This document shows, one piece after another, positions 9,364-29,546 of a stretch of DNA of 41,105 nt. The DNA is from Veillonellaceae bacterium (GTDB taxonomy: Bacteria > Bacillota_C > Negativicutes > UBA1444): NCBI GenBank assembly GCA_012798135.1, contig JAAZNU010000220.1:1-41105 (forward strand), written 5' to 3'. Numbering within the stretch: position 1 is the stretch's first letter; each line of letters starts with the position of its first letter. The translations under genes were made by a program, and so were the position numbers. The notes beneath the pieces are model-generated. The model had not been told where the DNA came from. It was given only the letters and a program-made list of their open reading frames with translations, and made no database searches.

Positions 9364-10209
9364 TCAGGTGTAGTTTCGGATGACCAGCTCCTTCACCGAA
9401 CTGCGGGAGGAGCTCTTCGCGGCCACCGCCCTCGGGGCCGTGATGACCGCGTGGTTCACCCCCGGCATCGTCGCCGGGTCAAACAGGGTCTTCGTCACCT
9501 CGTTGTACGAGTTGGAGAGCATCCAGCGGACGCCCTTCTTCGTGAGCCGAGTGCAGAGCAAGGCCAGCCGCTTCTTGTCGTCCGGTCCGAACCCGCCGGC
9601 GGCGTAGCTCGTGAAGCTCGCCGTCTCCGACAGCGGTACATAGGGCGGGTCCAGATATACGAAGTCGCCCTCCTCGGCGCCGGCCAGGATCCACTCGAAG
9701 TCACCCGTCCGGATGTCCGTCCGGCCGTACATGACGTTGGATGCCTGATCGAGCTTGAGGCTGATGTCCAACAGATCAAGGACGGTCGGCTGGGGGTACT
9801 TCCCCCACGGGGCGTTGAACTGCCCTTTGGAGTTGACCCGGTACAGGCCGTTGAAGGCTGTCCGGTTGAGAAAGAGCATTCGGCCGGCGACCGCGAAGTC
9901 GCTCATCTTGCCGGGTTGCATCTTCACGACCTCCGCGAACCCGGAAGGGGACCAGTACTTCGAGACGAGGCGCTCGAAGGCGTGCGCCACGTCCCGAGGG
10001 TGCTCCCGAACCGCCCGGTACGTCCGGATCAGCTCCTCGTTGGTATCCGAGAGGACCGCCTGTTGGGGGCGCAGGAAGAAGAACATCGCCCCGCCACCGA
10101 GGAACGGCTCCCAGTACGTACCTGTGAAGGACAAAGGCAGGAGCGGCCCGAGTCTGGGCAGGAGTCGTCCCTTGCCTCCCACCCACTTCAGGAATGGAAT
10201 CCTACCCAT
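9364..10209 (-). CDS. dam: Dam-type DNA adenine-N6 methyltransferase
   Basis: 281 residues, the normal length for the D12 class. Motif X KWVGGKGRLLPRL (8-20), motif I EPFLGGGAMFF (34-44), the conserved NRTAFNGLYRVN (115-126), and catalytic motif IV DPPY (187-190) are all present. The enzyme transfers a methyl group from SAM to adenine N6 in DNA, GATC for most Dam relatives; specificity here is not visible. In phages it typically protects against restriction or marks DNA. ATG 10209 follows AGAGAGGTGAAG and overlaps the preceding gene by 8 bases. Confidence 0.95.
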   Translation of the reverse strand: MGRIPFLKWVGGKGRLLPRLGPLLPLSFTGTYWEPFLGGGAMFFFLRPQQAVLSDTNEELIRTYRAVREHPRDVAHAFERLVSKYWSPSGFAEVVKMQPGKMSDFAVAGRMLFLNRTAFNGLYRVNSKGQFNAPWGKYPQPTVLDLLDISLKLDQASNVMYGRTDIRTGDFEWILAGAEEGDFVYLDPPYVPLSETASFTSYAAGGFGPDDKKRLALLCTRLTKKGVRWMLSNSYNEVTKTLFDPATMPGVNHAVITAPRAVAAKSSSRSSVKELVIRNYT

Positions 10210-12451: not shown

Positions 12452-13530
12452 GCCATCTTCCCCTTCATCTTCGTCCCCGCCTTCACGGGGCCAAGCAGGG
12501 TGAGAGTTCGACCACCGGGGTTGACCCTGGCACGGTAGTGCCGGAAGAGCTGGGTCCCCTTCGACGTGCCGACGGCCACCAGGACAACGGCACCCGGACC
12601 CACTCCCGTCCGCCCCTTCGGCTCGAGGACATCGAGCACGAGCTTACTGTCGAGCACCGACTTCCCCTTGTCGTATACCTTCCGCTTCCAGTCCAGCGGA
12701 AGGCACACGCGAATGTGCATGTCACGGTATTTCTGCTTGGCACGGCTCTCGACGTAGGGAGAACGGCCTTTCACGCCCAGGTCCACCTCGACGTTGTTGG
12801 CGTAACGATAGTATTCCCGGCGGAACGTGATGATCTTCGAATGCTCGACCTTCGAGGTCTTACGGAACAGTCGGTTGATGATCTTCACCACCACCCTCCG
12901 GTGAGCCTCCTTGAGGGAACAGATGCCGATCAGGTCCAACACCCCGCCCTTCATGCTCGGTTTCTTGGGGCGCTGCCAGCCGCCGTTCCGCTTACGTAAG
13001 TCGGTAACGACCTTCCAGGCACACCGGGGCATCCAGAAATCGCTGGACCATTCGCCCCACCAGTACCTGCAGAAGCTGCGCTGCCAGGTCTGGTAAACCC
13101 TACGGCACCCGTACCGCATGCCCAGCTTCCCCATCACCTTCTCCCCGGACTCAAGGCCTCTTCGAAGCTCCCTCCTGTCGTGGTTGTGGAAATGGAGACG
13201 ACCACGGGAGTCCATTGAGATGGTATGCAGCTGGCCGCTGCACCGCACCCGGAACGACCAAGGTGAGATCCATCCCTTCCGGAGGAACGACCGCCTGGTC
13301 ACCAGGAACTGGGCCCGCATCTGCGCCCGCTTTGCGTCGTCCTTCTCCAGGAAGTACCCCCTGAGGATCGACTCCGGGAGCAATCGATCGATAGCGATCT
13401 CCCGGATCTCCTCCCAGGTCTTGAGAATGCGCTGCTTCTCGGCGGCGTCCGCAGTGTCCCAGCTGTCCCGCCAACCCCACGGGTAGGTATCCGGCATGTC
13501 CGCTGGACGGACCAACTTCGCCCTCGTCAC
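12388..13530 (-). CDS. Basic protein of unknown family, longer paralogue
   Basis: 380 residues. An extra N-terminal helical segment of about 85 residues precedes the shared core beginning at FRVRCSGQLHTISMD (RCSG at 96-99). The core matches the downstream gene through MHIRVCLPLDWKRKVYDKG and VLDVLEPKG. GTG 13530 has AGGAGGTGATTGA upstream and a GTGA overlap with the vWA gene's stop. Function unknown; co-transcribed with the vWA/AAA+ cassette, so an effector or substrate role is one possibility (inference). Confidence 0.75.
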   Translation of the reverse strand: MTRAKLVRPADMPDTYPWGWRDSWDTADAAEKQRILKTWEEIREIAIDRLLPESILRGYFLEKDDAKRAQMRAQFLVTRRSFLRKGWISPWSFRVRCSGQLHTISMDSRGRLHFHNHDRRELRRGLESGEKVMGKLGMRYGCRRVYQTWQRSFCRYWWGEWSSDFWMPRCAWKVVTDLRKRNGGWQRPKKPSMKGGVLDLIGICSLKEAHRRVVVKIINRLFRKTSKVEHSKIITFRREYYRYANNVEVDLGVKGRSPYVESRAKQKYRDMHIRVCLPLDWKRKVYDKGKSVLDSKLVLDVLEPKGRTGVGPGAVVLVAVGTSKGTQLFRHYRARVNPGGRTLTLLGPVKAGTKMKGKMAWVPQENDGVAMAAGPAFTLP

Positions 13531-14714
13531 TCAATCACCTCCTTGTCAGCGAACTCCTCCGGCGGAATCTCGAGCTTCTCGCCGAACGGGACCTCTCCCT
13601 TCATCGTGGTCACCCAGAGCACGGGGTAGTCCGGCGTCTCCGCCGGAAACGTTCCCATCAGGTCGGTCATGAAGAGGAGCAGTTGGGGCTTGAGGTCCTT
13701 CTCCTCGATCCAGTCGAACACCGGCGTGAAGTTGGTGCCGCCTCCGCCCTTCACAGCCTTCTTCAGCTTGTAGATCTCCTCGTCCGAGAAGTCGGAGAGG
13801 AGGATGCTGTTCTGGATGGCCGCGTCGCACATGACCACCCACACCTCGCTGGCCATGCCGGCCAGGCCGCGGATCTCGGAGATGATCTCGATCAGCGGCT
13901 CGCCCACCATCGATCCGGACGTATCGATGGCGATGACCACGTCCGGCAGCCCGTGCTTCGGCGCCAGCGGAGGGATGTACATCCCCAGACTGAGGAACGC
14001 CGGACTGAACCGGTTCGTAACGAGATCGTGATGCCCGACCTTGCTGCCCCAGTACTGCCGGAGGATCTCCCGCCAGGGGATGCGCGGCTCCCGGAGCTTC
14101 TCGATGAACAGCTCGATGCCGGCGGGGAGAGTCCCTCTCCCCGACATCTTCGCGGCCTGGTACGAGGCCAGGACCCCGGTGAGGACCCGGTCCGGGTCGT
14201 CGGACTCCGACAGGGGCAGCGCGCTGTCCGCCGGCTCGAGGCCCTCCAGGGCCTTCAACAGCTCCACGTTCTTGAGGGCCTCGAGGTAGATCTTCGCCGC
14301 GGTGTCCAGACCGGCCTTCGCACACATCACGCTCACGGCGGAGACACCATCAGGAACCCTGACGAACTCGTCAGGAACGGCCATCTCGGCCTCGACGGTC
14401 TGGGCCGCCGCCATGATCTCGGGGTACTTCACCGGCAGGGTGCGGGACGTGTGGTGCAGGATGATCCTGTTGATCTGCCTGCCGATGAGCCCGAACATCT
14501 CGGGGAACTTCAGGGCGGCCGCCTTCGGCCCGACCGTGATCCGGTTCCCATCGGTCGTCGCCATGTTCTCCCGGTAGTCCATGTCGATGACGACCGGGAA
14601 GTGGGCTGCCATACCCCAGTAGAAGCGGTGGTTGAGTCCCATCCGGATCCCGAGACGCTGCATCCGCAGATTCAGGGTCTCGTAGACCTCCTTCTCAGAA
14701 GGTTCGTTCGACAT
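13527..14714 (-). CDS. vWA-domain protein, DUF2201-like metallopeptidase fold without HExxH
   Basis: 395 residues. The C-terminal half has a von Willebrand A domain with MIDAS motif DTSGS (264-268), the conserved T in GGGGTNFTPVF and FMTDLMG. The N-terminal half follows the layout of DUF2201_N, but where the family has HExxH it carries HHTSRT (87-92), so peptidase activity looks lost. vWA proteins of this kind partner MoxR-type AAA+ ATPases, and such an ATPase lies four bases upstream. Likely adaptor that couples ATPase force to a client. No clear ribosome site at ATG 14714. Confidence 0.85.
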   Translation of the reverse strand: MSNEPSEKEVYETLNLRMQRLGIRMGLNHRFYWGMAAHFPVVIDMDYRENMATTDGNRITVGPKAAALKFPEMFGLIGRQINRIILHHTSRTLPVKYPEIMAAAQTVEAEMAVPDEFVRVPDGVSAVSVMCAKAGLDTAAKIYLEALKNVELLKALEGLEPADSALPLSESDDPDRVLTGVLASYQAAKMSGRGTLPAGIELFIEKLREPRIPWREILRQYWGSKVGHHDLVTNRFSPAFLSLGMYIPPLAPKHGLPDVVIAIDTSGSMVGEPLIEIISEIRGLAGMASEVWVVMCDAAIQNSILLSDFSDEEIYKLKKAVKGGGGTNFTPVFDWIEEKDLKPQLLLFMTDLMGTFPAETPDYPVLWVTTMKGEVPFGEKLEIPPEEFADKEVIE

Positions 14715-14718
14715 GGCG

Positions 14719-15888
14719 TCACGCGATGTCGTCGGACATCAGCTGGGAGAGCTGATCGTAGACGGCCCTGGCCGTCTTGCTCTTCTCCCCGCCCATCATC
14801 TCGCGGTAGACGTCCGACATCTTTCGCCGGTCCGTGAGGATCAGGTCCTGGATGAGGACCGTCTGGAACTGGGGACTCAGGAGCTCGAGCACGTTCACGA
14901 GCCCGATGGCCAGCTCCTTCATCTTCTTCTTGCCGCGCATCCACCAGGCCCGGCCCTGAGACATCAGCGCGTACTCGAGGGCCTGGCGGTTGGCCTTGTC
15001 TTTCCCCGCCACCTCGTCGAGGGGCGGGTGCTCGCCCCTGACCGCCAGGTCGATGTCCACCAACTTGTAGGTCTCGATGAACGCGATGAGCTTGTTGCAG
15101 ACCGCCGAGCCGAGGTTCGACTCGAGGACGGTGCGCAGCATCTTGTCCCGCGGGTCGAGCGGGCGGACCCGACCCTCATCCTCGTCGCCCCAGAAGACCT
15201 TCACCTCGTTCGAGGCGGCCTCCCAGGACCGGGGCGTGCAGAACGCCTTTTCCTGGTTCTGCGGCATCACCGAGAGGTCGGCGGGCTCGCTGTCGAGATA
15301 GCCGATGAACTCAGACCGGATGCGGCCCTCGCCGATGGCCCAGGGGCGCCAGACGGTCTTGTACTCGGCCACCACGTAGTGGTGGGCCATCCGGTTCGCC
15401 AGCGGTCCGTGCAGGGGGAACACCCCACCCGTCTCGTTGGCGCAGAACACCAGGAGCCACCCCGGTCCGAGCTGGCTGTCGAGCAGCCGGCGCTCAAGGA
15501 CCAGGTCCAGGGCGATCTTCTGGACCGCGTCCGGGGCTCCGGTGAAGTCGTCGATGACGTAGATGCCCTGTCCCTCGTGCGGGACCGGGATCAGGGGGTG
15601 CCGCTCGAACTTCCCGAGCAGGTCGTTCCACTTCGGCACCCCGCAGAGCTGGTTGTAGTCGGTCGTGGGAAGGCCAACGCGCACGAACCCGATGCCCAAG
15701 GCATTGGCGCATCTCTTGGCCACGGAAGACTTGCCGACGCCCGGCGGGCCCCAGAGCATCTGGGCCGGCAGGCGCGACTTGTCCTCCAGCTTCGCGAGGC
15801 GGAGCAGCTTCGCCTCCACCTCCTTGAGGGTCACCTCGGCACCGAAGATCTTGGCCTCGGCCTGCGCACGACCGTTGCTACGAGCCAT
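14719..15888 (-). CDS. MoxR/CobS-like AAA+ ATPase
   Basis: 389 residues. Walker A GPPGVGKS (47-54), Walker B IYVIDD (109-114), sensor-1 CANE (149-152) and PLANRM (162-167, Arg finger region) are in the normal AAA+ order. The loop insert and partnership with vWA and DUF3150-like proteins place it in the MoxR/CobS clade, which remodels protein complexes or inserts metal cofactors. ATG 15888 follows AGGATGTGAAGG and overlaps the KH gene by 11 bases. Confidence 0.88.
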   Translation of the reverse strand: MARSNGRAQAEAKIFGAEVTLKEVEAKLLRLAKLEDKSRLPAQMLWGPPGVGKSSVAKRCANALGIGFVRVGLPTTDYNQLCGVPKWNDLLGKFERHPLIPVPHEGQGIYVIDDFTGAPDAVQKIALDLVLERRLLDSQLGPGWLLVFCANETGGVFPLHGPLANRMAHHYVVAEYKTVWRPWAIGEGRIRSEFIGYLDSEPADLSVMPQNQEKAFCTPRSWEAASNEVKVFWGDEDEGRVRPLDPRDKMLRTVLESNLGSAVCNKLIAFIETYKLVDIDLAVRGEHPPLDEVAGKDKANRQALEYALMSQGRAWWMRGKKKMKELAIGLVNVLELLSPQFQTVLIQDLILTDRRKMSDVYREMMGGEKSKTARAVYDQLSQLMSDDIA

Positions 15889-17690: not shown

Positions 17691-17989
17691 CAGCTCTTCT
17701 CCGGAATCTTCGCCACGTCGAGAGAGAAGTCGAGGTCGTGGCTCCGGCCGATGGCGTCGACGATCGTCCGCAGGGCGCTGGCGATGTGCCCCTTGGAGCC
17801 GATGAGCTTCTTTCCGTCCTCCCGTGTCTCCGGGAGGATGCTGAACACGGCGACCTTGTCGCCGGCCTTGGAGACCGTCACCCTGGCCTTCGCCTTCACG
17901 AGGTTCTTGATCAGGGTGAGCAGCATCTCCGTGCAGTCGACGATGGCCTGCGGCCGCTCATCGATCAGCCAGGTGAAGTCAGTCGACAT
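17690..17989 (-). CDS. KhpA-like KH-domain RNA-binding protein (second copy)
   Basis: 99 residues. KVAVFSILPETREDGKKLIG, KH loop IGSKG (63-67), helix HIASALRTIVDAIGR and strand DLDFSLDV reproduce the KhpA layout and align with the copy at 15878. An extra N-terminal helix (ERPQAIVDCTEMLLTLIKN) is present. ATG 17989 has CCGGAGGATCG. Two KhpA-like proteins in one phage operon is unusual to my knowledge; RNA binding is inferred from the GxxG loop. Confidence 0.72.
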   Translation of the reverse strand: MSTDFTWLIDERPQAIVDCTEMLLTLIKNLVKAKARVTVSKAGDKVAVFSILPETREDGKKLIGSKGHIASALRTIVDAIGRSHDLDFSLDVAKIPEKS

Positions 17990-18938
17990 CGATCCTCCGG
18001 ACCGGGGCCTCCTTCACGAGGCACTCGACACGTTCCCGGATCTTCCGGATCTGGGCCCCGGCTTCCTTCGCCAGGTCGGGGTCGTTCTTCGTCTCGCGGA
18101 GATCCCCACCCTGAACGACGTCCCGGAACTGGGACACCACGGAGGCCAGCTCCTGGTCGTTGGCGATGTTGAGGGCCTCGAAGTTGTCGACGAACTCGAG
18201 GACCTGCTTCACCGTGCTCTCCCGGAGGAACTTCTTCTTGCCCCCCGGCTCGACCTCGAACTTCTCGGCCAGCGTCTTCATCAAGTCGGCGAACATCCGG
18301 CGCAGGGCACCGATCGCCTCGTCCTTCGCCTCGGTGATCCGCTTGGCCAGGCGGACTTTCTGTCGGTCGAAAGCCGCCTTCGACAGCTTCTCGAGGACGT
18401 CGGGGACGCCCATGTTCTCGAGGCTGTAGTCCACCCAGAACTCCTTTCGGACCTGGGCCGGGCTCGGGAAGGCGGACTCCTTGAACAGCGGGTCCGTCTT
18501 CCGGACCTCCTCGATGGCCTGGAGGTACTTGTCAGGCAGGAACACCCCAATGAGCTCGTCCCGCCGCTTGAGGTACTCCTCGACGGTCTCGTCCGCCCTC
18601 GGAACGAGGGCCAGAGGGATCACATACGACCCCGAGCGCCCGGGCTCCGGCAGGGACAGCCGCCGCAGTTCGCGTCGCACGGCCCCATCCGCCGACAGGA
18701 TCGCCGAGTACGCCTTGCTCTTGATGAGCTTCCGGCGCAGAGACACCAGGGTCGGGTCCGCCTTCTGCGTCATCACGTCCCGCCGCTGTGCCTCGGGAAT
18801 CGGGACGCTCTCCGTGATTCCCCAGATGTGGGGGGTCAGCTTCAGCCGGAGGCACTCCTCCGACATCATCCTCGGCTTGGGGGCCGGTTCCGCCGGCGCC
18901 GGCTGGGTCACCGGCTGGGTCTGCTTCTGCACGTCCAT
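17979..18938 (-). CDS. DUF3150-like protein
   Basis: 319 residues. After a disordered Pro/Gln N-terminus carrying QPVTQPAPAE, the central part (LTPHIWGITESVPIP, YVIPLALVPRADETVEEYL, RRDELIGVFLPDKYLQAIEE) fits the DUF3150 family, which in bacteria and phages accompanies CobS/MoxR AAA+ and CobT-like vWA proteins. The rest is a long coiled helical region. Its exact job is unknown. Start ATG 18938 is preceded by GAGGTAGC. Overlaps the second KH gene by 11 bases. Confidence 0.6.
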   Translation of the reverse strand: MDVQKQTQPVTQPAPAEPAPKPRMMSEECLRLKLTPHIWGITESVPIPEAQRRDVMTQKADPTLVSLRRKLIKSKAYSAILSADGAVRRELRRLSLPEPGRSGSYVIPLALVPRADETVEEYLKRRDELIGVFLPDKYLQAIEEVRKTDPLFKESAFPSPAQVRKEFWVDYSLENMGVPDVLEKLSKAAFDRQKVRLAKRITEAKDEAIGALRRMFADLMKTLAEKFEVEPGGKKKFLRESTVKQVLEFVDNFEALNIANDQELASVVSQFRDVVQGGDLRETKNDPDLAKEAGAQIRKIRERVECLVKEAPVRRIDVD

Positions 18939-18939
18939 G

Positions 18940-19191
18940 CTACCTCCTCACTCGTTCCCGTTCCCGCACGACCGTGCGGGTCTTGCGGATCTTCTGCGGG
19001 GTCCCCTCGAAGTGCTCCGCCAGGAACGCCATGATGCGCTCGGCGGACATGTGATTGACCTCCGAGATCTCGCCGAAGGTCTCAACCTTGACCGTCCCGT
19101 TGTCCAGGACGCTGATCTCGATCAGATCGTCACCGGGACCGGTCGGTCCGGCCCCGTGGTGATGATGGTGACCGTGACCGTCGTGGCACAT
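18940..19191 (-). CDS. DUF2997-like protein with natural His-rich N-terminus
   Basis: 83 residues. The N-terminus MCHDGHGHHHHHG could bind metal. The following IEISVLDNGTVKVETFGEIS and helix MSAERIMAFLAEHF resemble DUF2997, a short partner of DUF1257 and Ycf46 ATPases in cyanobacteria and phages. The C-terminus is Arg-rich. ATG 19191 has GAGGAGGTACTAGC and starts one base after the DUF1257-like stop. Confidence 0.55.
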   Translation of the reverse strand: MCHDGHGHHHHHGAGPTGPGDDLIEISVLDNGTVKVETFGEISEVNHMSAERIMAFLAEHFEGTPQKIRKTRTVVRERERVRR

Positions 19192-19192
19192 G

Positions 19193-19522
19193 CTAGTACC
19201 TCCTCTTCAGACGGAGCTTGCCGCTCTTCTCCTCCAACTGCCATCCGAACTTCTTGCTGGCGGCCTTCACCACCTGCTTCGTGTACGCCTTCGTCAGCTC
19301 CGAGGCGATCTCCTGGCTTCGGTTCTCCTGCATGTAGGCCCCGGAGATCTCGGCCACGCCGCCCTTCCTGATGCGAACGGTTTCCCTGCCCTTCGTCAGG
19401 GTCATCTCCTGGCTGGTCCGGTAGACGTACCACCCCGCGGCGCGGGCAGCGGTCTCGAGGGTGTCCCAGTTCTTCAGGTTCTCAAGGTGGGCCGAGAAGA
19501 TGCTGATGCTGTCACAGGGCAT
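19193..19522 (-). CDS. DUF1257/Ycf35-like protein
   Basis: 109 residues. MPCDSISIFSAHLENLKNWD, then LETAARAAGWYVYRTSQEM, and the C-terminal LTKAYTKQVVKAASKKFGWQ with SGKLRLKRRY match the DUF1257 (Ycf35) layout. In cyanobacteria and many phages DUF1257 is next to DUF2997 and Ycf46 AAA ATPase; all three are here. Function of Ycf35 is not established. Overlaps the upstream gene by 11 bases. Confidence 0.65.
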   Translation of the reverse strand: MPCDSISIFSAHLENLKNWDTLETAARAAGWYVYRTSQEMTLTKGRETVRIRKGGVAEISGAYMQENRSQEIASELTKAYTKQVVKAASKKFGWQLEEKSGKLRLKRRY

Positions 19523-20090
19523 CGGACACCTCAGTCCGCAGGTCCACCTTCGCCTCGGCCTTCATCGCCATCTCCGTCACCATCCGGCGCACCGCCGTCT
19601 TCTTGAGCAGCTTGACGATGGCCAGGTGGATCGACACGTCGGGATCGATCGTCTTCTCGAACCGGACGACCGCCTGGTCGTACCGGAGGTTGTACTCGTC
19701 CGGGATGATGGGCTCCCACCAGACCTGGCAGCCGTACACCGTCTGGCCGGAGTCGAGGATGATCTTCGGGTTGGCGCGGGTCCAGACGACCTTCGCACCC
19801 TCGGGCACCGCGTCCGCCGGCGGCTTCTCCTCGGCGTTCGGGGCAGAGCGGAGGGAGCCGTCGGGCATCTGGAAGAAGTACACCGGCACCTCGGCGACGT
19901 ACGTCCCGTCGCCCAGGTCCACCATCTGGTCCCCGGACATGACGTGCACACGTATCCCCTTGGGCTTCTCCTTCACCGGCGCCGGCGGCGGCGCCATCGG
20001 CACCACGGGCTCACGGCCCCTGGGGGCCGTCTTGGTCGACCGCCGATCGGTCACCCGGATGGGCTCCTTCGACGTCTTCTTCACCTTCAC
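19512..20090 (-). CDS. Hypothetical protein, 192 aa
   Basis: GTG 20090 with AAGGAGGTGGCGCG upstream. A Lys/Pro-rich N-terminus (about 1-45) precedes a beta-rich region (GIRVHVMSGDQMVDLGDGTY, VPVYFFQMPDGSLRSAP, GCQVWWEPIIPDEYNLRY) and a charged helical tail. An in-frame ATG at 20171 has no ribosome site. No family known, but it sits between the DUF1257 gene and the AAA ATPase, so it may be a third partner. Confidence 0.6.
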   Translation of the reverse strand: MKVKKTSKEPIRVTDRRSTKTAPRGREPVVPMAPPPAPVKEKPKGIRVHVMSGDQMVDLGDGTYVAEVPVYFFQMPDGSLRSAPNAEEKPPADAVPEGAKVVWTRANPKIILDSGQTVYGCQVWWEPIIPDEYNLRYDQAVVRFEKTIDPDVSIHLAIVKLLKKTAVRRMVTEMAMKAEAKVDLRTEVSDAL

Positions 20091-20157
20091 CGCGCCACCT
20101 CCTTCTTGTTCATGATCGCCATCCGGCACTGGGCCGACTGGCTTCTCCACGACCGTG

Positions 20158-20640
20158 CTAACCTGCACCATGATTCGTCTGCTTGCGGTGGGCGTGGCGG
20201 TAGTGCAGCAGCCGCATGGGGAACCCATAGTCCTTGGCACGGCCCCGCAGGCCCTCCGGCTCGCCGTAGTCGGGGAACACCATCTCGATGTGCTTCATGA
20301 TCGCCTTCTCGAGACCGCGGGGCCGGCAGATGTCCTTCAGCGGGACGATGAGCTCGAACGAGCAGTGGGTGCACATCCGGTGGGACGCCCTCGCCACCCC
20401 CTTCTTCCCGTTGTAGACGTCCTGGGGGCTGCAGAAGGACAGCCCCGTCTTGAACGTGACGAGGGGCCCGACGCTCGAGTCGCCGGACGTGGCCGTGACG
20501 GCGATCGGGGTCAGGAGGGCCGTCATCCCGTAGTACTGGTTCTTCCCGAACGGGAACGCCTTCGGGAGATGGATCGCGCTGTCGGGGGCCGCCAGAAGCT
20601 TCAGCATCATCGGCGCCGTCTTCTTCGTCGTCTTCTTCAT
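20158..20640 (-). CDS. Hypothetical protein, 160 aa
   Basis: ATG 20640 behind GGAGGCGACG, nine bases after the AAA ATPase stop. Lys-rich N-terminus, then AIHLPKAFPFGKNQYYGMTA, strands (LTPIAVTATSGD, LVTFKTGLSFCS), a CTHC pair, and a basic C-terminal His/Arg tail. Not recognised. Its tight placement between the ATPase and its partners suggests a role in the same complex. Confidence 0.65.
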   Translation of the reverse strand: MKKTTKKTAPMMLKLLAAPDSAIHLPKAFPFGKNQYYGMTALLTPIAVTATSGDSSVGPLVTFKTGLSFCSPQDVYNGKKGVARASHRMCTHCSFELIVPLKDICRPRGLEKAIMKHIEMVFPDYGEPEGLRGRAKDYGFPMRLLHYRHAHRKQTNHGAG

Positions 20641-20649
20641 CGTCGCCTC

Positions 20650-22170
20650 CTACTCCCCGATCTTCCGGCCGCCGATGCGCTCCTGCGGCTCGACGCGGTG
20701 GTACAAGCCCTTGGCCGACGCCGACAGCCACCGGCCCTCGGCCGAGCTACGCAGGCTGGCCAGCTGCTCGACCATCGACCGGCTGACCGGGGCGATCCAC
20801 GTCGCCGCCTCCTTCGGGCTGATCTTCAGGTCTCGAGCGAGGTCGCAGCAGGTACGGATCTCGGCGCCCGTCCATCCGTCGTCATCCGGGAGCTCGCCCT
20901 TCGTGATGCCGGTGCGCTTCAGGTGGATCTTCCAGATGGCCGCCCGCTCCTCGGGTGACGGGAGGTCAAAGAACCAGATGCCGTACCGGAACCGGCGCTT
21001 CAACTCCGGCGGGAGGCCGGAGAGCCCGTTGCATGTGGCGATGAAGAAGTGCCGCTTCGCGACGGAGGCCAAGGTCCGCATCGCGTCCCTGGTGTTCTGC
21101 TCCGACTCGCCGACGTAGCTGCCCTTCAGGCCGCCGATGTCGAGGGCGATGGTCGGGACGGGTCCGATGGAGCCGATGGCCTGGGCCGAGAGGCTCTTGC
21201 CGGCGCCCGGCGGGCCGACGGCGATGAGGCCCGTGGCGTTGCTCTCCTCCATCCAGCTCAGCAGCGTGCCCAGGATGTCCTGGGAGACGCCCGAACTGTC
21301 CCCGAGCTGACCGGAGGCGCCCGCGAGCGCCTTCTCGATCTCGTCGATGAAGACGATGCAGTCGGGGGGATTCTCACCGGCCATCAGCAGCTGGGCGAAG
21401 TCCTTGATGCCCGCCAGGCCGCCGATGTCGTCGAGCTTGAACTGGGAGTTCAGGACCCGCAGGCCCTTCACGGCGTTGACCGCCTGCTTCCACCTCTTCC
21501 AGAGAACGTCGATGTCCAGTTTCCCCTGGATAACGGATAGGGCCGCGGCCTGCTCGATGGTGAACGGCGGCAGACCGTGGGTTGCCTGGACGATCTTCGG
21601 CATCTCCTTCGGAACCGCCATGCCGTTGTCCTCGAACAGCCGAGTGACGATGTTGGCCCGGGCTTCCTCGTCCGGCAGCGCCTCGTCGAGCAGGGCCGTG
21701 TTCTTGGCGATCTCGACGGGCAGCTGGAAGTCCGGGCCCAGGAGCACCAGCATGCGGAAGTCGCCCTTGAACGGGTCCCGCAGGTTGGCGATGGCCTGGA
21801 CGCAGCCCCACGACTGCAGGATCTTGTGGCCGCCGCGGACGATCAACATGCTGCCCGAGGGCAGATTCTTGGCGGCGAGCATCAGGTCCACCGGGTTCAG
21901 CAGGTCCGCCGGCTCCTTGTCGCCCAGCATCTTCTGCAGCGCGACGGTCGACTTCCTGGTGAGGGCATAGGGGCCGGTGACGCAGTCCCAGCCGACGAAC
22001 ATCGGCTCGGGCGGCCCGTCCTTCTTCGTCTTGGCCTTCTCCCGCCATGCCTCCTCGAGCCACAACGGGATGTTGGCCTCCAAGACGTGCTCGTCGGCCG
22101 TGCAGATGGCCACCAGCGGCACGCCTTTGCCGCGGTACCGGACCAAGTCCTCTTTCACGGTTCGTACCAT
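20650..22170 (-). CDS. Ycf46-like AAA+ ATPase with permuted Walker motifs
   Basis: 506 residues. N-terminal domain (about 1-215) resembles Ycf46: PLVAICTADEHVLEANIPLW, MFVGWDCVTG. The ATPase region reads in the order IVFIDEIEKALAG (Walker B, about 272-284), then GPPGAGKSLSAQAIG (Walker A, 319-333), then GSYVGESEQN (350-359), then FFIATCNGLSGLPPELKRRF (sensor 1 and Arg). In Ycf46 and other AAA proteins Walker A precedes Walker B. All pieces are present and intact, so it is probably an active enzyme. Start ATG 22170 is set by GGAGGTG. Downstream lie DUF1257- and DUF2997-like partners. Confidence 0.82.
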   Translation of the reverse strand: MVRTVKEDLVRYRGKGVPLVAICTADEHVLEANIPLWLEEAWREKAKTKKDGPPEPMFVGWDCVTGPYALTRKSTVALQKMLGDKEPADLLNPVDLMLAAKNLPSGSMLIVRGGHKILQSWGCVQAIANLRDPFKGDFRMLVLLGPDFQLPVEIAKNTALLDEALPDEEARANIVTRLFEDNGMAVPKEMPKIVQATHGLPPFTIEQAAALSVIQGKLDIDVLWKRWKQAVNAVKGLRVLNSQFKLDDIGGLAGIKDFAQLLMAGENPPDCIVFIDEIEKALAGASGQLGDSSGVSQDILGTLLSWMEESNATGLIAVGPPGAGKSLSAQAIGSIGPVPTIALDIGGLKGSYVGESEQNTRDAMRTLASVAKRHFFIATCNGLSGLPPELKRRFRYGIWFFDLPSPEERAAIWKIHLKRTGITKGELPDDDGWTGAEIRTCCDLARDLKISPKEAATWIAPVSRSMVEQLASLRSSAEGRWLSASAKGLYHRVEPQERIGGRKIGE

Positions 22171-22186
22171 TCGTGACACCTCCAGT

Positions 22187-22246: not shown

Positions 22247-22963
22247 CTACCAGAAGACCGCCGTCGACGCAGCAACAATCAGGTGCTTGGCGGCCATGAT
22301 GTTCCTCTCCGGGTCGCCTCTCATGGGGAGCTCGACGCAGGCGATGCGCTGCACGCCGTCGTGCAGCAAGGCGTCGCCCATCGATCCGTCGCACGGCCAC
22401 GGCCTGTCCGGCCCGGCGCCGACCCAGTAGTTCAAGGTATCGTGCAGGTACCGGCGCCAGAGCCGGTCCTTGCGGTTGGGGCGGTCGCGGCGGTCGCCCG
22501 TGGCGAAGTAGATGTACCCCTCCGTGGCGTCCGGGTCCTCATGGAAGGCCAGGTAGCCGCTGTGGGCGTACACCGTCAGATTTCTCCAGTTGGCACTCTC
22601 GTGGAGGATGCTGTACTCCCTACACGGGGCCTGACCAAGCTCGACCTGATGCACCCAGCCCCGTTCGGGGTCCTCGTACCACCGGTTGAGGTGCTGTCCC
22701 CGAATGTACCCGCTCGGGTTCACCACCGGCAAGTAGTAGACCTCCGAGGGGAGGGAGAACCGTCCAGGGTCCGACAACAGGCGGACGATGCCCAGCGTCC
22801 CTGACCGCTCGTCCCCATGGATGGAGCCGGCTACAAGCAGGCTCTTCGTCCCCATAGGGACACGAGGGCCAAGGAGCATGAGAGGCCCACCTACATCAGG
22901 CCCCGTGTAGATGTTACACCAGTGCGTCTTGAACTGGTGCCAACGGATGTCGTATAGGTCCAT
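22247..22963 (-). CDS. Zinc carboxypeptidase-like (M14/AstE-AspA) protein
   Basis: 238 residues. Zn-binding HGDE (49-52) within LLVAGSIHGDERSGTLG, NPSGYIRGQHLNR (Arg/Asn substrate clamp), a third His in VYAHSGY and a likely catalytic Glu in ACVELPMRGDP follow the M14/succinylglutamate-desuccinylase order. Phage members may cut peptidoglycan stem peptides, or remove amino-acid groups from small molecules; the substrate is not visible. No signal peptide. ATG 22963 has only AGG close by; a hairpin lies just upstream. Confidence 0.72.
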   Translation of the reverse strand: MDLYDIRWHQFKTHWCNIYTGPDVGGPLMLLGPRVPMGTKSLLVAGSIHGDERSGTLGIVRLLSDPGRFSLPSEVYYLPVVNPSGYIRGQHLNRWYEDPERGWVHQVELGQAPCREYSILHESANWRNLTVYAHSGYLAFHEDPDATEGYIYFATGDRRDRPNRKDRLWRRYLHDTLNYWVGAGPDRPWPCDGSMGDALLHDGVQRIACVELPMRGDPERNIMAAKHLIVAASTAVFW

Positions 22964-28559: not shown

Positions 28560-29546
28560 TCAGCTCCGGGGCGAAGGGAGGGTCACCCGGTTCCGCTCCG
28601 GGGTCTCGGGGATCCAGACGGTGTCCTCGTCCGGGCAGGGACAGGGCGGGTCGACGCTGTTGAAGCCGGCCGCGCCGGGGTGGCCGCCTCCGCCGTGCTC
28701 CTTCGCGATCGCGCTCACGTCGAACCAGCCGGCGTCGGCGGCCCGGTAGAGCGTGACCTCCCAGTAGCGGCCGGTGAACTTGTAGGGCATCCAGCCGTCC
28801 ACGTCCTTCAGCCGCTCGGGGGCCAGCTCTCGGGCCTGCTCGAAGACGAGGCTGTTGATCCGGCTTCCGTTACAGGCCCACCACCACTTCCCGTCGAACT
28901 GGACCCGATAGCCGTTCGTGATGACGAGGTTGGCGCCGTGCATCAGCTCGGCCTTCCGGATGGCCATCCCCTGGCTCTCCAGGGTGTCGAGCATCGCCGT
29001 GGCGCGCGCATCGTTCTCGAGCAGGGTCTTCATGATGGTCGCCTCCCCGATGGCCGGGGAGAAGATGTCGGTGGCTGACAGGGCCGCCACGATCGACAGG
29101 ATGCGGACGTCGTTCTTGTGCTCCCAGGTGTCGTAGAGGGAAACGATCTCCACGACCGTCGGTACGGGCTTGTCCGGATGGAAGTACTCCCAGGTCAGCC
29201 GGGCGCCCGACGGCTTCGTGAGGGCCCGCTTGCCCTCGATCGGGGCCAGCTCCCTCGCGTTGATCGCCAGCTCGACGGCCGCGATCGCGGTCTTGTGGTG
29301 GTCGATCCAGATCAGCTGCTTCCCCAGGTCCTGGATCTTCTTGAACACCTCCGGCGGGAAGGAGAAGTCAACGACGACGACCACGTCGGCCGCCTCGATG
29401 GCGTCCCAGGGCGGGTCCTTGTCGTAGCTCATCTCGATCCGAGAGACCTGGTGCGGGGCACCGGAGCCCCAGTTGTTGGAGTTCATGGCGACGTAGCCGG
29501 CAACCCGGCCGTCCAGATCGTCGTGATGCAGTACGAGTACGTTCAT
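28560..29546 (-). CDS. DHH-family phosphoesterase
   Basis: 328 residues. HHDDLDG (7-13), VVVDFS (58-63), IDHHKT (81-86) and the DHHA1 motif GGGGHPGAAG (285-294) are all present. The acidic and His residues bind two Mn ions. Family members hydrolyse nanoRNA, pAp or cyclic dinucleotides; for a phage, RNA fragment turnover or degradation of cyclic-nucleotide defence signals are both plausible. The C-terminus ends with a short Cys/Pro tail (DPPCPCPDED). ATG 29546 has GAGGAGGAGAA and ATGA-overlaps the upstream gene. Confidence 0.9.
   Translation of the reverse strand: MNVLVLHHDDLDGRVAGYVAMNSNNWGSGAPHQVSRIEMSYDKDPPWDAIEAADVVVVVDFSFPPEVFKKIQDLGKQLIWIDHHKTAIAAVELAINARELAPIEGKRALTKPSGARLTWEYFHPDKPVPTVVEIVSLYDTWEHKNDVRILSIVAALSATDIFSPAIGEATIMKTLLENDARATAMLDTLESQGMAIRKAELMHGANLVITNGYRVQFDGKWWWACNGSRINSLVFEQARELAPERLKDVDGWMPYKFTGRYWEVTLYRAADAGWFDVSAIAKEHGGGGHPGAAGFNSVDPPCPCPDEDTVWIPETPERNRVTLPSPRS

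Follow-up and report, generated by a model that had tools for sequence, protein, structure and literature searches.

An AAA+ ATPase related to Ycf46 with Walker B ahead of Walker A in its core

Results

The window analysed here is positions 1 to 41,105 of contig JAAZNU010000220.1 of the Veillonellaceae bacterium assembly GCA_012798135.1, and our subject is an AAA+ ATPase gene on its minus strand, which is followed by genes that resemble the DUF1257 and DUF3150 families (Table 1). Residues are numbered throughout in the 506-residue form that starts from the ATG at 22170. The protein, encoded at 22179-20650, reads FKLDDIGGLAGIKDF...PDCIVFIDEIEKALAG and holds Walker B at residues 272-277. After Walker B, in chain order, come GPPGAGKS at 319-326, VGESEQN at 353-359, and IATCN at 377-381. 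The motif order of the core is the DIGG helix, Walker B IVFIDE (272), Walker A (319), GESE (354), and the sensor-1 motif ATCN (378). In an AAA+ chain of normal order, Walker A comes first and Walker B second, and this is not what is found here. A sequence-only reading of the window had claimed the order Walker B, GPPGAGKS, GESEQN, ATCN, and both the translation and the Pfam mapping described below bear it out. Its positions for the first two motifs, about 275 and about 322, match 272 and 319 once the 509-residue numbering is converted.

Table 1. Coordinates of the ATPase gene, its parts, and its assigned neighbours in the window
Feature	Coordinates	Strand	Remarks
AAA+ ATPase gene, swapped core	20650..22179	-	509 residues from GTG; 506 residues from ATG at 22170; Pfam AAA 6.4e-14
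N-terminal domain, residues 1-235	21466..22170	-	No Walker motifs; alignable with the region of the first AAA domain in p97/Cdc48
DIGG motif and helix α0, residues 246-265	21376..21435	-	Usual place ahead of the core; from sequence and junction table
Segment B, residues 266-311 (β3 with Walker B, pore-loop-2 equivalent, α3)	21238..21375	-	Exchanged position; PF00004 44-96; model E271-275, H295-309
Walker B IVFIDE (272-277)	21340..21357	-	E277 in 247/247; D276 in 226/247, E in the other 21
Segment A, residues 312-372 (β1, P-loop, α1, β2, pore loop 1/GESE, α2)	21055..21237	-	PF00004 2-54; model E313-318, H325-335, E340-343, H355-370
Walker A GPPGAGKS (319-326)	21193..21216	-	K325 in 247/247
GESE (354-357)	21100..21111	-	G354 in 247/247, E357 in 180/247
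Segment C, residues 373-440 (β4/sensor 1, second region of homology, β5, lid start)	20851..21054	-	Segment C profile; model E374-380, E398-400
Sensor-1 strand FIATCN (376-381)	21028..21045	-	N381 in 247/247
Arg-finger region KRR (391-393)	20992..21000	-	R393 in 247/247, R392 in 243/247; stretch one residue shorter than in normal-order relatives
Sensor-2/lid motif WTGAEIR (433-439)	20854..20874	-	WTGAEI largely conserved; common to normal-order relatives
DUF1257-like (Ycf35-like) neighbour, 109 residues	19193..19522	-	No direct Pfam match; support via homologues
Small neighbour, 83 residues, perhaps DUF2997-like	18940..19191	-	Homologues in 31/81 viral loci; gene order and likeness by eye only
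DUF3150-family neighbour, 319 residues, most constant partner	17979..18938	-	No direct Pfam DUF3150 match; assigned via relatives

The Pfam AAA profile (PF00004) matches the window ATPase with 53 bits, against a cut-off of 21.2, and the match is split in two stretches. When residues 256-311 were tested alone, they matched profile positions 44-96 (25.3 bits), and residues 316-368, tested alone, matched positions 2-54, so the order of the profile is inverted in the protein. A Pfam scan of residues 1-240 gave no match, and this part has no recognisable motifs.

Of 7999 candidates scored in a protein search, 2168 matched with E values of 0.001 or below, and the best 120 were used. With a loose pattern, a Walker-B-like string was seen before the P-loop in 101 of these 120 homologues, after it in none, and nowhere in 19; for 6 of the 101 the string is in the N-terminal domain only, which leaves 95 with the string at the expected place. 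Three block profiles were prepared from the alignment of the 120, B for β3/Walker B to α3, A for β1/P-loop to α2, and C from sensor 1 onward. The first round, on 167 loci and the 120 proteins, gave 260 sequences with B before A (including all 120 proteins), 26 with A before B, and 1 fragment. The set was then widened, by three more viral scans and a normal-order protein search (5457 matches), to 329 loci and 240 proteins. The result was 335 chains of order B-A-C (swapped), 225 of order A-B-C (normal), 1 A-B-C chain with an extra weak C match, and 1 fragment, with no order call for 1 of the 80 genome loci and for 6 of the 80 loci of the viral scan made with a normal-order query. These counts are best matches to chosen queries and not a census. 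Since contigs recur between scans (for example, L001 and L067), we also give the numbers of distinct cores in the widened set, 279 swapped and 216 normal.

The swapped order was found in 80 of 80 viral loci in the first alignment scan, 64 of 64 in the second, and 12 of 15 in the third, with contigs partly shared between scans, so that the order is conserved in phage homologues, a comparison that the sequence-only reading had proposed. It was also found in 57 of the 80 genome loci, which include Nitrospira, Acidobacteria, Armatimonadetes, Gemmatimonadetes, Deltaproteobacteria, and two planctomycete metagenome-assembled genomes (L098 and L101); the contigs of such assembled genomes may be binned phages. 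The isolated, cultured phage Tunturi_3 (L002) carries the swapped order, as does the complete chromosome of Nitrospira moscoviensis at two loci (L102 and L103). Normal order was seen in 120 of 120 listed relatives of a planctomycete query, in five named phages, and in three plasmid proteins, two from Manganitrophus and one from Nostoc. Relatives occur on 646 plasmid records, mostly from enterobacteria, of which 570 are predicted to be conjugative; the order was read in three of these, and all were normal.

In the Nitrospira moscoviensis copy at L102 (1071-16053), a TraG/VirD4-like conjugation gene adjoins the ATPase, and genes for ribonucleotide reductase, a primase, a helicase, and a DUF6094 methyltransferase are near. 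This gene content suggests an integrated conjugative element, and with this one locus the swapped order is not confined to phage contigs. Two other observations were made among the relatives. In five viral relatives of the normal-order query (L305, L306, L308, L310, and L313), the matched region is about 2.3 kb long rather than 1.5 kb and gave no order call; an intron or intein may interrupt the ATPase gene in these. L319 and L320 belong to one viral contig of 170,948 bases, which has a copy of the gene near each end, in opposite orientations, perhaps as a result of inverted terminal repeats or of an assembly effect.

Most of the relatives are metagenomic, as would suit an assembly or cloning artefact, but the isolated phage, the two loci of the complete Nitrospira chromosome, and the 279 distinct cores reduce the probability of that explanation to a negligible level. 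With the many genome and viral loci, they show that the order is neither a misassembly, the outcome that the sequence-only reading had said would overturn it, nor private to the window. An accidental DEIEKA segment, with the true Walker B elsewhere or lost, was also considered, as some homologues have a DEA-type string in the N-terminal domain as well. However, residues 256-311 alone reach AAA positions 44-96 at the score given above, the same segment profile detects the usual Walker B in the 225 normal-order relatives, and segments A and C nearly abut, which leaves no room for a Walker B strand between GESE and sensor 1. We regard such an accident as exceedingly unlikely.

In the normal-order relatives, α0 is followed by 10-25 linker residues and then by blocks A, B, and C; in the swapped proteins, 0-9 residues (mostly 0 or 1) separate α0 from block B, which blocks A and C follow in that order. 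Thus, DIGG/α0 and everything from sensor 1 onward are unmoved. Block B is joined to block A by 0-3 residues in 258 of 259 swapped sequences, gaps between blocks are small in both orders, and the median core length is 174 residues for swapped and 171 for normal chains. A second copy of a block was looked for in the swapped cores, and none is left over. Judged from these alignments, the change is an exchange of β3-α3, about 46 residues with the pore-loop-2 equivalent, for β1-α1-β2-α2. The earlier proposal that the strand-3/Walker B unit had moved ahead of strand 1 is correct in direction and is refined here to a trade of these two whole units, and the altered connections that it foresaw are three changed chain joins (α0 to β3, α3 to β1, and α2 to β4). 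Circular permutation, in the wording of the available excerpts of PMC2430557, trades the two ends of a domain. In the window ATPase the N- and C-terminal parts of the domain are not traded; α0 and segment C keep their places, so the rearrangement is an inner-block swap and not a circular permutation.

The swapped sequences form one clade (50 of 50, ultrafast bootstrap 100) in an IQ-TREE tree made with one model, LG+G4, on 98 of the 495 distinct cores. A larger FastTree tree has 179 of 179 swapped sequences in one group. After re-rooting, the FastTree support of the swapped node is 0.796 in the larger tree, 0.446 for the core, and 0.0 for the N-terminal domain, with the grouping recovered each time; because re-rooting can move FastTree labels, we rely on the IQ-TREE bootstrap.

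K325, E277, N381, and R393 are invariant in 247 of 247 swapped sequences, in agreement with the claim that every motif is intact, and the residue set of the AAA clade (Walker A, Walker B, sensor 1, Arg finger, and sensor 2) is complete in the window ATPase, although which Arg acts as the finger we can only infer. Since the order is conserved across a large clade with all motifs kept, we take it to be a real structural novelty, as the earlier reading had suggested, and not decay. The spacing from PPE, in the second region of homology, to DLP is 12 residues in 253 of 255 swapped cores and 13 in 172 of 174 normal cores, the pattern being unmatched in 24 swapped and 42 normal cores. RxxR is present in 173 of 174 normal cores, while the 255 swapped cores have an adjacent RR (217), RxxR (31), or neither (7); RxxR was scored before RR, so the 31 include the window protein, which has both. 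By these counts, the second region of homology is also altered in the swapped lineage, being one residue shorter and mostly carrying an adjacent Arg pair. This shortening, and the Glu that replaces D276 in 21 of the 247 sequences (with Arg at 274 in 19 of the 21), could be signs of a degenerate, non-hydrolysing family in which the order stopped mattering. Yet the four invariant residues speak against this, and we consider it very unlikely. Members of the Glu-for-Asp subgroup are, for example, P0006-P0008, P0010, P0011, P0013, P0015, L021, L035, L050, L080, and L139.

The AlphaFold2 single-chain model of the window ATPase has a predicted local distance difference test score (pLDDT) of 95, with block means of 97 at residues 261-280 and 82-98 over residues 281-320. 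When overlaid on seven solved AAA domains, the model has 35-53 fewer aligned residues than a normal-order relative has, a difference of about one moved block. The structure prediction and overlay that had been proposed for the hexamer were thus made with a single chain, and they give a confident AAA fold with a deficit that fits one segment out of order. The AAA+ sheet order in space is β5-β1-β4-β3-β2 in the available excerpts of PMC5039278. In the coupling analysis of the swapped family, β3-β4 and β5-β1 stand out among the four strand pairs that are adjacent in the normal sheet. This is weak evidence that the Walker B strand has its usual place in the sheet, where β3 would lie between β4 and β2. 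A different arrangement would be a strand-swapped ring, in which β3-α3 completes the sheet of the neighbouring subunit and the exchanged segments hold the ring together. The β3-α3 unit now adjoins the N-terminal linker, as such a ring might require, and neither conservation nor coupling can separate contacts within a chain from those between chains. However, the B-to-A junction of 0-3 residues and the confident single-chain model over residues 261-320 make the strand-swapped ring improbable.

The DUF3150-family gene was assigned through four relatives, of which two match PF11348 (DUF3150), L168 at 1e-8 and L003 at 1.1e-5, and two, L155 and L102, do not. A relative of this gene lies near the ATPase on the same strand in 79 of 81 viral loci (one contig being present twice), and it is a neighbour in 48 of 57 swapped genome loci and Tunturi_3 as well as in 17 of 21 normal-order genome loci. 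For the DUF1257-like neighbour, the DUF1257 cut-off of 22.2 bits is passed by two of the five relatives in its profile (L089, 29.6; L060, 25.3) and not by L168, L102, and L003; this profile finds the annotated DUF1257 proteins of L168 and L169 and misses those of L170 and L166. The small neighbour itself does not hit Pfam DUF2997 directly, its relatives L003 and L102 have no DUF2997 match either, and its profile misses the DUF2997 protein of L168. A PHROGs scan of the five genes at 17979-20640 gave no match.

Elsewhere in the window, DnaB and ParB-like genes fit a phage, and no terminase or portal was identified among the 25 open reading frames scanned. A MoxR-like AAA gene (14719-15888, minus strand) adjoins a gene for a DUF2201 von Willebrand factor A (vWA)/metallopeptidase protein (13527-14714, minus strand); the available excerpts of PMC7824862 propose that a MoxR-like/vWA pair in jumbo phages aids virion assembly. 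The gene just upstream of the ATPase (22247-22963, minus strand) is like the catalytic domain of AstE/AspA succinylglutamate desuccinylase at 24.4 bits, under the Pfam cut-off of 25. Also on the minus strand are a D12-class adenine DNA methyltransferase gene (9364-10209, 2.5e-46) and a DHH phosphoesterase-like gene (28560-29546, PHROG 4771, 2.2e-37).

Discussion

A Ycf46-like ATPase combines an N-terminal domain free of motifs with a single active AAA domain after it. The window ATPase shares this architecture with the Ycf46-like (SpoVK/Ycf46/Vps4-type) proteins, together with DIGG/α0 and alignable segments A, B, and C, and among predicted viral structures its three best matches bear the name ycf46. 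The Ycf46-like relatives have similar neighbours; the annotated records of Manganitrophus plasmids carry AAA, DUF1257, DUF2997, and DUF3150, and Rhizobium phage RHph_I4 has the gene order ATPase, one gene, DUF1257, DUF2997. However, those Ycf46-like relatives whose order was checked have Walker A first and an RxxR Arg-finger region that is one residue longer. Because it lacks their normal core order, the window ATPase is a sister branch of the Ycf46-like ATPases with a swapped core, and not a plain member. The AAA domains of p97/Cdc48 and Vps4 also differ from it in having the normal chain order. Since mostly the same partner gene is kept, the swapped and normal-order ATPases probably have the same function. 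The gene set is in part already known, as a cyanobacterial cluster of DUF2997, ycf35 (DUF1257), and fed7 is named in the available excerpts of PMC4284462. The anti-phage ATPase IetA was considered and rejected, as it gave only weak matches (PADLOC, 35.1 bits; NCBIfam, 34.8 bits, with a cut-off of 510).

Circularly permuted GTPases (the YRG family and cpRAS) are P-loop NTPases with altered motif order that are presumed or shown to be functional, according to the available excerpts of PMC2430557 and PMC6912228. They resemble the window ATPase in this respect, but they rotate the whole domain, whereas the window AAA+ protein trades an inner block and both domain ends stay. Permutations are said to be common in Rossmann proteins in the excerpts of PMC7758060. 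No description of a permuted AAA+ core was found in the available parts of the open-licence full-text literature on permuted AAA+ and P-loop cores, permuted GTPases, the neighbour families, and MoxR/vWA pairs, nor in those of PMC10853773 (methylases), PMC7824862, PMC5039278, PMC2430557, PMC4284462, PMC13131479, PMC6912228, PMC7758060, and PMC9196750 (a GTPase).

We think it highly probable that the window protein is a Ycf46-like tandem AAA+ ATPase in which two β-α blocks were exchanged once, and that it is probably a working remodeller with a normal core. In its chain, β3(Walker B)-α3 now precedes β1(Walker A)-α1-β2-α2, while α0 before them, and β4(sensor 1)-Arg finger-β5-lid after them, are unmoved. 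In a parallel α/β sheet, each β-α unit begins and ends on one edge, and the ATP loops are on the other edge. Because the strands are parallel and the unit ends are on one edge, blocks can trade chain order yet occupy the same places. The rewiring would be limited to three loops at the edge remote from ATP and would leave the ATP loops and the two pore loops as they are. Block A, as we take it, carries the P-loop and pore loop 1, and block B carries Walker B and the pore-loop-2 equivalent, an assignment that the alignment with p97 supports. Since each block keeps its own functional loops, we take the protein to be an ATP-driven ring remodeller with normal chemistry. It would most likely fold to the normal AAA+ core, form a ring, and hydrolyse ATP with the usual residues. 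Substrate proteins would be remodelled together with the DUF3150- and DUF1257-like partners, as is presumed for the normal-order relatives. Ring assembly, ATPase activity, and remodelling function of the swapped ATPase are inferred, as is the placement of β3 between β4 and β2. As for its origin, the swap may have come about by tandem duplication of A-B, followed by loss of the outer A and B.

Several observations weigh against this proposal. There is no intermediate of the duplication route among the block-profiled relatives; ABA and BAB chains and leftover second copies were sought with the block profiles over the 329 loci and 240 proteins, and none was found. The Walker B Asp is replaced by Glu in the 21 sequences described above. 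The alignment deficit of the model shows that one segment is out of order and not where it lies, and AlphaFold2 may pull a chain toward a familiar fold. The coupling analysis was performed on small sets (effective 185 and 86 sequences), and its signals are weak. In the swapped family, β1-β4 (P 0.84) and β3-β2 (P 0.27) do not stand out, and the non-adjacent pair β5-β4 ranks second both in the smaller swapped set (P 0.050) and in the normal-order set (P 0.047). When the two families are compared by their 20 strongest couplings, each block pair has 0-1 shared pairs, a number that some shifted maps also reach. Finally, the DUF3150-family neighbour was found in none of the five other named phages, whose flanks cover 3-6 kb only.

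A further proposal, which we put forward tentatively and hold to be somewhat doubtful, is that the single-origin, non-circular swap also rewired the communication in the ring, giving a motor with altered inter-subunit coupling. The inter-subunit signalling motif of usual AAA proteins lies in the stretch after α3, which there runs into the sensor-1 strand. In the swapped chain, this stretch instead passes directly into the P-loop strand, and the lineage also has the shortened Arg-finger region.

Few proteins have been studied as much as the AAA+ motors, and, to our knowledge, their chain order of Walker A, Walker B, and sensor 1 is generally taken as fixed. The comparisons made here indicate that the swapped order is an old, stable rearrangement common to many phage and mobile-element relatives, and no error. 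In practice, swapped AAA+ proteins surface in profile searches as two-piece AAA matches. The existence of a sizeable natural lineage with an inner-block exchange would mean that the usual AAA+ motif order is dispensable. The lineage offers a natural experiment to find the chain connections through which allosteric signals pass, and a direct comparison is possible, as the normal-order sister family mostly keeps the same partner gene.
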